DNA of 64,000 bases from a virus. The DNA is taken from positions 33,112 to 97,111 of IMG/VR virus record IMGVR_UViG_3300002144_000072; one strand, written 5' to 3'. Made by a program: the position numbers and the translations under genes. Of this stretch, positions 61,833 through 64,000 are shown piece by piece. How positions within the stretch are numbered: position 1 is the stretch's first letter; every line of letters starts with the position of its first letter. A model generated the notes under the pieces. It did not search any database. It was given only the letters and a program-made list of their open reading frames with translations, and had not been told where the DNA came from.

Positions 61833-62477
61833 ATGAGAATCAATGATATTTTAACAGAAAGTCAACAACAAGAGCTCGAAGAAGGCCCATTGGGTGCTAT
61901 CGGACGAGGACTAGCCAAAGGAATTGGCGGAGTTGCTAAAGGCGTTGGTATGATCGGCGGCATTGCAGGTGGCGTTAAGAAAGCGTACCAAAAAGGTAAA
62001 GCTACTTCTACTGCAAATATCGCAGGAGATGTTCCAGCTGCTGCACCAGATCCAGCAATGCAAAAAGCATACGATGACGAATATGCTAAAGTGACTGCGC
62101 CTAAAAAAGCACCGGCACCAGCAGCAGCAGCACCAGCAGCGGCGGCACCAGCAGGCTCAATAGCAGGCGCAGCAGCAGGCGCAGCAGCACCACAACCAGC
62201 AGCAGCACCAGCAGCAAATCCTAAAGCAGATAGTGCATACGCACAAGTTAAAGCACAAGTTGGCCAACTTGACAAAAAAGGTAAGCAGCGCATTATGCAA
62301 ATGCTACAAAAGTCATTAGCAGCGCCGGCTCCTAAAAAAGCAGCACCAGCAGCAGCACCAGCAGCAGTACCAGCTGAACCACAAATGGCAGGATTCTACG
62401 ATAGTGTGCAAAGACACAAAGAGCGTATGATGACCGAAGCATTGATTGCAGGGACCGCTAGCTTGTACAGAAGATGA
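61833..62477 (+). CDS. Ala/Pro-rich protein with capsid-targeting-like N-terminus
   Basis: The 214-aa protein begins MRINDILTESQQQELEEGPL, then a Gly-rich helix (about residues 22-52), a long Ala/Pro-rich low-complexity linker (about 88-130) and a helical C-terminal part (VGQLDKKGKQRIMQMLQKSL). The start resembles the T4 capsid-targeting sequence (M-K-x-x-x-E-F-I-x-E), and both ILTE-S and LEE-GP fit the gp21 prohead-protease rule L/I-x-E before a small residue. It may therefore be an internal head or scaffold-core protein; this is inference. Repetitive GCA/CCA codons mark the linker. Confidence 0.65.
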   Translation: MRINDILTESQQQELEEGPLGAIGRGLAKGIGGVAKGVGMIGGIAGGVKKAYQKGKATSTANIAGDVPAAAPDPAMQKAYDDEYAKVTAPKKAPAPAAAAPAAAAPAGSIAGAAAGAAAPQPAAAPAANPKADSAYAQVKAQVGQLDKKGKQRIMQMLQKSLAAPAPKKAAPAAAPAAVPAEPQMAGFYDSVQRHKERMMTEALIAGTASLYRR

Positions 62478-62704
62478 GAATAAGTGATTTAATAGAAGAT
62501 AGGGCTCTTGAAGAAGGCCCTATGTGGGATAAAGTTAAAGGTTTCTTTAAAGGTAAACCAAAAGACACCACCGCAGTTAAGTCATCACCGTTTGATATTA
62601 TTCCTAGAAGAGATGCTAAAAACATGTTAGGTAAAATTATCAACGGAAAGCCGTTAGAATCTAACGAAATTCGTTTATTAAATCAAGTATACAACAAGCT
62701 CTAA
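62474..62704 (+). CDS. Small protein with the same N-terminal leader motif
   Basis: This 76-aa protein begins MRISDLIEDRALEEGPMWDK, matching its upstream neighbour in MRI-x-D-[IL] and LEEGP, followed by a basic segment (KGFFKGKPKD) and a helical C-terminus (LGKIINGKPLESNEIRLLNQ). The LEE-G site fits T4-type prohead-protease cleavage, which would release a basic 64-residue product. It overlaps the preceding gene by four bases and its stop overlaps the convergent stop of the gene-26 extension by two bases. Confidence 0.6.
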   Translation: MRISDLIEDRALEEGPMWDKVKGFFKGKPKDTTAVKSSPFDIIPRRDAKNMLGKIINGKPLESNEIRLLNQVYNKL

Positions 62705-62928
62705 AAGAAAGGCAGTCCTGTCTTTTTAGTTGTTTCTAAATTCTCTTTAATAATCTCGCCGACGATTTCTCTTTCGTCCCAACTCATATTCAATACTTCT
62801 TCATAAGAAAGGCCTCGCATGTACCAACATAGCTTGAGGCAATCTTTCTTAATTGCCTTACCTTCTTTATCTAATTTCTCAGACTCACGTAAAATCTCCG
62901 GTAAGGGCAGACTTAAGATTTTACGCCG
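62701..62928 (-). CDS. -1 frame extension of gene 26 (gp51-like or chaperone-type domain), no own start codon
   Basis: This 75-codon frame runs from the gene-26 slip site to a TAG at 62701-62703. It reads as a compact helical domain with KKDCLKLCWYMRGLSYEEVL and NMSWDEREIVGEIIKEN. It opens after a TGA about 20 codons upstream and has no ATG, GTG or TTG before the internal Met of WYMRGL, which has no ribosome-binding site. It is therefore most easily expressed by -1 frameshifting from gene 26, giving a 362-aa fusion. A short second protein after gp26 recalls T4 gene 51, but no sequence match to gp51 can be claimed. Confidence 0.6.
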   Translation of the reverse strand, partial: RRKILSLPLPEILRESEKLDKEGKAIKKDCLKLCWYMRGLSYEEVLNMSWDEREIVGEIIKENLETTKKTGLPFF

Positions 62929-63788
62929 AAAAAATTTGCTTGATCCATTGATACTGGCATAGTGAATGGTTTTTCACATTCAGAACATTGAACGTTTTGT
63001 TCTTTAAGTTCGATTTGACTTTTAATTGCATTAATATGGCTTGATATCTTTTCAAACAAATCTTTAGACGTATTGTGAATAAACTCTCTAATCATTGCTT
63101 TATCATCTACACTACCGTCTGGCGTATCAATTTTTGAAATACAATCAGCAACAATATCCACAGTTAGCTCTGTTAATTTGATAAAACTAGCGCCAAATTT
63201 GTCTAATTTAACCTCATCGGACAGTTCTTCGTCGTTGATAATTTGAAAAATACGTTGCTGTTCCATTGTCTTGATAGAAGTTTTAGTAATTTCTCTATAT
63301 GAATAAGGACGAATATGTACAACTAACGGATCAGCATCAACTATTTCGTTGTATTCAAAATTGTTAAACACTGAGAACCAGTCTGACAGATTTAATTCAT
63401 AAGAATTTTCCGCTTTGCAGTATGGACATTCACATCCTACCTCCATCTTTTCTCCGTAAGTAGCAATACGAATTGCAATTAGAGCAAAATCTAAATCAAT
63501 TGCAGGCATTTTCCACGGATCTATAATAGCAGGGATACAGCTTTTGATTAACTCGACAGTGCTTTGTCCTGATAACAATGCATCTGGAGTTTTAAACATT
63601 AACTCGTCTTTTGCTGTCATAGCAAATACTGGATATTGATTATCTGTACTAACATCTAAAGATCCAGGTGCGTAAAATTTTCCTTTAGACGGAAGTGATA
63701 CATAGATTTTAGGTTGTCTGTAGAACGCTGCTAGCGGGTTCTTCTTTGCCATCGTCACAGTTGGTGCTACATTTGGAATTTCGTTCAT
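62913..63788 (-). CDS. 26: Baseplate hub protein, gp26-type (T4_baseplate family)
   Basis: The 291-aa protein has the family's N-terminal block LPSKGKFYAPGSLDVSTD (about residues 32-49), FAMTAKDELMFKTPDALLSG (55-74) and IPAIIDPWKMPAIDLDFALI (85-104). It then has two cysteine pairs, CECPYC (119-124) and CSEC (about 273-276), that could form a zinc ribbon. It is longer than T4 gp26 (208 aa). The ATG at 63788 follows GGAG; an ATG ten codons upstream lacks one. It is behind a perfect late promoter and ends in a likely frameshift site. Confidence 0.8.
   Translation of the reverse strand: MNEIPNVAPTVTMAKKNPLAAFYRQPKIYVSLPSKGKFYAPGSLDVSTDNQYPVFAMTAKDELMFKTPDALLSGQSTVELIKSCIPAIIDPWKMPAIDLDFALIAIRIATYGEKMEVGCECPYCKAENSYELNLSDWFSVFNNFEYNEIVDADPLVVHIRPYSYREITKTSIKTMEQQRIFQIINDEELSDEVKLDKFGASFIKLTELTVDIVADCISKIDTPDGSVDDKAMIREFIHNTSKDLFEKISSHINAIKSQIELKEQNVQCSECEKPFTMPVSMDQANFFGVKS
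62928..62934 (-). promoter_or_regulatory. Candidate programmed -1 ribosomal frameshift site
   Basis: Read on the minus strand in the gene-26 frame, codons AAT TTT TTC contain the heptamer T TTT TTC, a classical X-XXY-YYZ slip sequence on which both Phe tRNAs can re-pair after a -1 shift; A AAT TTT, one codon earlier, is a second possibility. It lies five codons before the gene-26 stop and leads into the 75-codon open extension. Confidence 0.6.
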
Positions 63789-63858: not shown

Positions 63859-64000
63859 ATGGCAGTTTTTATCGATATCCCCGGAGTCGGAACCGTAGAA
63901 GCCAAAAACGCTGCATCTGAAGCCACCTTACGAGAACTTGTAAGAGTCATGGGCGGCAAAACTGGTGGCGGTGGTGGCGGTGGTGGAGTTGTCTTTGCTG
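63859..64000 (+). CDS. N-terminal fragment of a tail protein, possibly tape measure/hub
   Basis: The first 47 residues are visible: MAVFIDIPGVGTVEAKNAAS, a helix ATLRELVRVMGG, and then a run of eight glycines before the right edge. AGGAAAA is the ribosome-binding site. In T4-like phages the tape-measure gene (29) lies in the same hub cluster as 26 and 51, and such a start followed by a Gly-rich linker is compatible with it. Too little is visible for a firm name. Confidence 0.4.
   Translation, partial: MAVFIDIPGVGTVEAKNAASEATLRELVRVMGGKTGGGGGGGGVVFA

Follow-up and report, generated by a model that had tools for sequence, protein, structure and literature searches.

The window analysed here, a stretch of 64,000 nucleotides, comes from a virus record of 97 kb whose end forms the right edge of the window. 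Close to this edge, a gp26-family gene lies on the minus strand between a small convergent ORF and the 5' part of a divergent gene, and several short elements are packed around its 3' end (Table 1). The gene product, the C-terminus of which reads ...QANFFGVKS*, matched PF12322 (T4_baseplate) with E=1.5e-15 and 57.9 bits, exceeding the curated cut-off of 24.5, and phrog_150 with E=5.7e-22. Homologues were found in 62 phage records, the named ones being mostly jumbo phages (Phosso, Atu_ph07, PA5oct, RaK2, 121Q, GAP32, CBB, BF, Munch, XaC1 and others). The window genome is that of a jumbo phage of the RaK2/121Q/Atu_ph07 superclade and not of a close T4 relative.

Table 1. Features at and around the 3' end of the gp26-family gene (positions in the window)
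Feature	Position	Strand	Remark
Zero-frame gp26-family gene for the putative short (G-like) tail assembly chaperone, 291 aa	63788..62913	minus	
Zero-frame stop codon TAA	62913..62915	minus	
Slippery heptamer T TTT TTC	62934..62928	minus	in phase (AAT TTT TTC)
Overlapping in-phase heptamer A AAT TTT	62937..62931	minus	invariant CAAATTTTTTC in relatives' alignment
75-codon extension in the -1 frame, putative helical domain of the T-like / gp51 C-terminal-like type	62704..62928	minus	
-1 frame stop codon TAG	62703..62701	minus	overlaps stop of convergent ORF
Hairpin 5' arm	62925-62915	minus	11 pairs
Hairpin 3' arm	62898-62888	minus	pairs with 62925-62915
Convergent ORF, 76 aa	62474..62704	plus	stop overlaps end of -1 frame
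Divergent neighbour gene, 5' part	63859..64000	plus	cut by record end

The divergent neighbour is likely the orthologue of a protein of at least 977 aa encoded at 2-2932 of the related locus L005, as judged from a similar N-terminus and from position. This L005 protein showed weak similarity to a tape measure family (phrog_5448, E=0.0011) and may be a tape measure protein. On the other side, the convergent ORF is adjoined by a 214-aa low-complexity protein rich in Ala, Pro and Lys (61833-62477, plus strand), and a similar Ala-rich protein stands beside gp26 in L005.

An earlier note on this DNA had proposed that the gp26 gene ends in a programmed -1 frameshift. As it had claimed, the heptamer T TTT TTC is in the correct frame and lies five codons before the TAA stop of the gene. 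It is the single in-frame instance among the 21,657 codons of the window ORFs of at least 100 aa. Inspection showed that a slip at the overlapping heptamer A AAT TTT would give the same fusion protein as a slip at T TTT TTC. An in-phase heptamer of the X XXY YYZ form, as expected of a -1 frameshift site, is thus placed before the zero-frame stop, and it is conserved in the homologues.

The -1 frame contains no ATG, GTG or TTG from its preceding stop codon, 13 codons upstream, to codon 38 (the two slip codons counted), so that 36 codons past the slip are without a start. The note's description of a start-less frame of 75 codons ending at the convergent gene was therefore accurate, and its product size of 362 aa agrees with the predicted fusion (287 + 75 = 362 aa). 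In pairwise comparisons of ten sequences, the mean pN/pS past the zero-frame stop was 0.20 in the -1 frame, which showed no stop codons, and 1.57 and 1.29 in the other two frames, while the gp26 body gave 0.29 in the same comparisons. For codons 8-37 of the -1 frame, which precede any possible start in the window, the value was 0.24. The -1 frame is under purifying selection, including the part preceding any start codon. Since codons 8-37 are selected and yet lie upstream of any possible start in the window, they could hardly be translated other than by slipping. The downstream frame is hence conserved as protein while it has no start of its own in the window, another mark of a -1 frameshift site. 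An AlphaFold model of the -1 domain consisted of helices (pLDDT 88), and a fold search with it returned no match at E<=0.001, the best-scoring entries being unnamed phage proteins.

The alignment of gp26-family loci that the earlier note had called for was made with 29 close relatives from IMG/VR, in 27 of which (63-74% aa identity) the gene end is intact, and with 14 named jumbo phages; slip site and overlapping frame were kept throughout (27/27 and 14/14). All 27 intact relatives carry CAAATTTTTTC and have an equally long -1 frame, which ends 212 nt after the stop codon begins. In the named jumbo loci the slip site reads TTTTTTC in 13 and TTTTTTT in the remaining one, XacN1, and the -1 frame behind it stays open for about 70-80 codons in all 14 (e.g. 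RaK2, 121Q, PA5oct). None of the 14 examined records annotates a joined CDS, and the CM1 record carries no annotation at all. In L038-L040 and other named jumbo records, short genes for a 'hypothetical protein' (phrog_18291) are annotated downstream of gp26; these are truncated calls of the -1 extension and start from an ATG that lies within the extension, about 14 codons from its beginning.

The arrangement extends further. In all 79 cyanophage-like IMG/VR loci, an in-phase TTTTTT precedes a C, G or A, and the -1 frame spans about 60 codons; in one locus it is cut by the contig end. Site and -1 frame were also found in S-CAM8, S-CAM9, Bakedbeans, DLP6, Cronobacter S13 and Aeromonas AS-szw, as well as in Rhizobium RL38J1, where the site has TTTTTTG. 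In T4 and phiAS4 gp26 the slip site is absent. The frame kept after loss of the heptamer, a pattern that the note had named as speaking against a frameshift, was met in some relatives, a few of them Ackermannviridae-like, in which the canonical heptamer is missing: Cba120 (L146), Kuja (L147), Vibrio D510 (L145) and Cygsa01 (L050). Their gp26 genes end with ATT TTC, CTT TTC or CTT TTT near the stop, and two of the four show a TAATG overlap; single-tRNA slippage or stop-start coupling is possible in these phages. Synechococcus phage S-SCSM1 is an oddity of another kind (L047, 3170-3375), in that its gp26 ends with T TTT TTC and the annotated gp51 domain stands in the +1 frame relative to gp26, a placement that differs from all other cyanophages seen and points either to an indel introduced in sequencing or to another way of expressing the domain.

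Beyond the heptamer, the window has a hairpin with a stem of 11 bp that begins 2-3 nt past the slip site. Across 14 distinct sequences, 96.8% of the stem cells were paired, compared with 28-52% in slid controls. Two stem pairs carry compensatory changes, one from A-U to G-C (four sequences) and the other from U-A to C-G (one sequence), and by inspection of the alignment these changes are mostly synonymous in the -1 frame. The minimum free energy of the window hairpin is -12.8 kcal/mol, with a modest z of -1.89 against shuffles. In the wider group, the 50 nt past the slip gave a mean folding z of -1.47 against shuffles and the control stretches gave -0.08, in a set of 45 sequences where related sequences were counted separately, which makes the p-value too favourable, and where two entries were mis-placed (that of the window, and that of L121 by one codon). 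Heptamers and their structures are usually 5-9 nt apart. A downstream structure is thus present in the window's clade, at a spacing of 2-3 nt that is short for a -1 frameshift site.

Since the heptamer, the start-less -1 frame and the downstream hairpin are all conserved, a programmed -1 frameshift is supported, and we infer, with a probability of about 0.93, that the locus makes a short and long pair of tail assembly chaperones in the manner of lambda G/GT. Most ribosomes would stop at the gp26 stop codon and release the short form of 291 aa. A minority would slip back one base on A-AAT-TTT-TTC, presumably helped by the hairpin 2-3 bases downstream, and produce the long form of 362 aa with its predicted small helical C-terminal domain. 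The gene anatomy read from the DNA provides two such forms with a shared N-terminal part, as in G/GT-type pairs. In lambda gpG/gpGT, the part common to both forms binds the tape measure protein, and tube subunits are recruited by the additional domain (PMC5009743). By analogy, the common part of the two window proteins would attach to the tape measure protein, and the domain added by the slip would bring in subunits of the tail tube. T4 would make the equivalent short and long forms from two separate paralogous genes, 26 and 51.

The relation to T4 was traced through gp51. Residues 1-201 of T4 gp51 matched PF12322 with E=3.9e-52; gp26 and gp51 matched each other in BLAST (E=2e-6), and cyanophage-type gp26 matched gp51 in hhalign (E=9e-10). 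The C-terminal part of gp51 matched phrog_634, and so did the -1 domains of cyanophages, Straboviridae and DLP6; the cyanophage-type -1 domain aligned with the gp51 C-terminus in hhalign at E=3e-8. By these sequence comparisons, T4 gp51 is a gp26-like domain joined to the -1 domain, and the same succession, a gp26-family domain followed by the phrog_634/gp51 C-terminal domain, was seen in cyanophages, in DLP6 and in two slip-using Straboviridae. For the jumbo phages, gp26 is clearly related to that of cyanophages (E=2e-16), while profile matches of the -1 domain were weak (hhalign E=1.5e-3 with the cyanophage domain, E=0.01 with gp51); it occupies the same place, behind the same slip, as the cyanophage domain. 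The gp51-like function that the note had assigned to the fusion thus gains support from the composition of gp51 out of PF12322 and phrog_634, but the match of the jumbo domain itself is mostly positional.

It could be argued that the frameshift is real and its product is a component of the baseplate hub or some other factor rather than a G/GT-type chaperone. The gp26 protein is annotated as baseplate hub, and T4 genetics placed gp26 there (PMC3004832). The gp26 model (pLDDT 82) had no match at E<=0.001 among the solved structures of the PDB, tail chaperones included, and the gp26 sequence had no match of note in the PDB. The missing fold match weighs little, since chaperone families are very diverse and fold is not strictly defining. 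Against this explanation, T4 gp51 does not occur in the finished virion and is named, like gp26, among the hub assembly chaperones (PMC3004832). Pairs of a short and a long form made by a -1 slip are the hallmark of tail assembly chaperones, and Vladimirov, Gautam and Davidson (2022), as cited in the PRFect paper (PMC10885494), reported those of T4-like phages as a short gene and a fused long gene. We consider a non-chaperone product rather unlikely. A search of the gp26 model against BFVD found gp26-like folds, with E from 3e-7 to 2e-4, in proteins of about 380-550 aa from jumbo phages such as phiRSL1, RSF1, RP12, Special G and Motura, and these predicted models suggest that related chaperones exist beyond the T4 group.

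According to another explanation, the downstream frame is no extension of gp26 but a small gene in its own right, which has its own start or is translated by re-initiation. Databases annotate it as a separate gene in several relatives; the ATG of 121Q gene 595 overlaps the gp26 stop, short separate ORFs are annotated in GAP32, CBB, XacN1 and SCTP-2, and Cygsa01 combines a TAATG overlap with the absence of the heptamer. The note's expectation that a start codon would be lacking holds for the window and fails in some relatives, where an early ATG lies near the beginning of the -1 frame; the heptamer is kept nonetheless. In most relatives the first start codon falls within the conserved domain, again with the heptamer kept, and in the window the selected codons 8-37 stand before any start. 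An own start codon was rejected for the window, where no ATG, GTG or TTG occurs before codon 38, and the separate-gene explanation as a whole is very improbable.

Transcriptional slippage at the T-run, which would yield mRNAs of altered length and let the fusion be read without a ribosomal slip, is hardly credible. The window and nearly all site-bearing relatives do have a run of six T, but six T are short for this process, for which runs of about nine are usual. The codon phase of the run is fixed and the next base is often C, as expected of tandem tRNA slippage, and a conserved structure follows the run. Although AT-rich phage DNA often contains small open frames, a chance frame or an assembly error has a practically negligible probability and was refuted, since the -1 frame is conserved, at a pN/pS of 0.20, in many phages and independent contigs. 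The sequencing error in the T-run which the note had allowed for is excluded because the same site and same-length frame recur in the 27 intact close relatives.

With a programmed -1 frameshift as the preferred reading, its history can be sketched. In a tree of 41 gp26/gp51 sequences, T4-type gp26 and gp51 formed sister groups with modest support (85/81) and stood beside the slip-using Straboviridae S13 and AS-szw. This topology, moderately supported, is consistent with the slip having been replaced by a duplication in the T4 lineage. We lean towards a scenario in which the cassette of T TTT TTC and a short helical domain is ancestral to the T4-related phages, from cyanophages to jumbo phages of 350-490 kb; the T4 lineage would have arrived at genes 26 and 51 by exchanging recoding for gene duplication, the jumbo branch would have kept the slip under selection, unannotated in the 14 examined records, and the window's clade would have added the covarying hairpin.

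The finding bears on a classic exception. A review of 2016 described the G-T frameshift as conserved in long-tailed phages, with T4 as the exception (PMC5009743); T4 now belongs to a family of which many members, jumbo and cyanophage relatives among them, appear to frameshift. Cyanophage ORFs named 'gp51 baseplate hub assembly catalyst' are explained as the -1 tail of gp26 and not as separate genes, by which the annotation of many genomes is corrected. Phages of E. coli, Klebsiella and Cronobacter are now available in which the ratio of short to long form, and the exchange of recoding for duplication, can be tested.

The note knew of no such site described for T4 gene 26, but sites of this kind are credited to earlier work. 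The work in question is that of Vladimirov, Gautam and Davidson (Virology 566:9-15), taken here through the papers citing it (PMC10885494, PMC12846349), one of which, a 2025 paper on phage Adele, credits it with poly-T slip signals in T4-like short-form genes (PMC12846349). As the citing papers do not name the genes, we infer that the short and long genes are gp26 and gp51. Novelty is limited accordingly, since that work is already credited with the tail chaperones of T4-like phages and with the poly-T slip signals in them.

Among known systems, lambda gpG/gpGT shares with the window a short chaperone to which a -1 slip near the 3' end adds a small C-terminal domain (PMC5009743); it differs in belonging to another protein family, with no sequence relation expected, and the gp26 family has zinc-finger-like Cys pairs. 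In Vandenendeviridae and Andersonviridae (phage Adele), the short form likewise has a T-rich -1 slip site close to its end, and the downstream frame was mis-annotated as a hypothetical gene, while the motif is GTTTTT instead of the T TTT TTC of the window (PMC12846349). The cyanophage 'gp51' ORFs (phrog_634) are the -1 domain itself, though annotated as independent short genes that start inside the domain. Closest are the T4-like gp26/gp51 chaperones: window gp26 and T4 gp51 both match PF12322 and phrog_150, a short and a long form are common to the two systems, and the Adele paper (PMC12846349) credits Vladimirov and colleagues with the poly-T slip signals of the short-form gene. T4 and its close relatives use two separate genes where the window phage has one gene with a slip. 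The window case is a solid further example of a trick that tail chaperones, T4-like ones among them, are already known to use.
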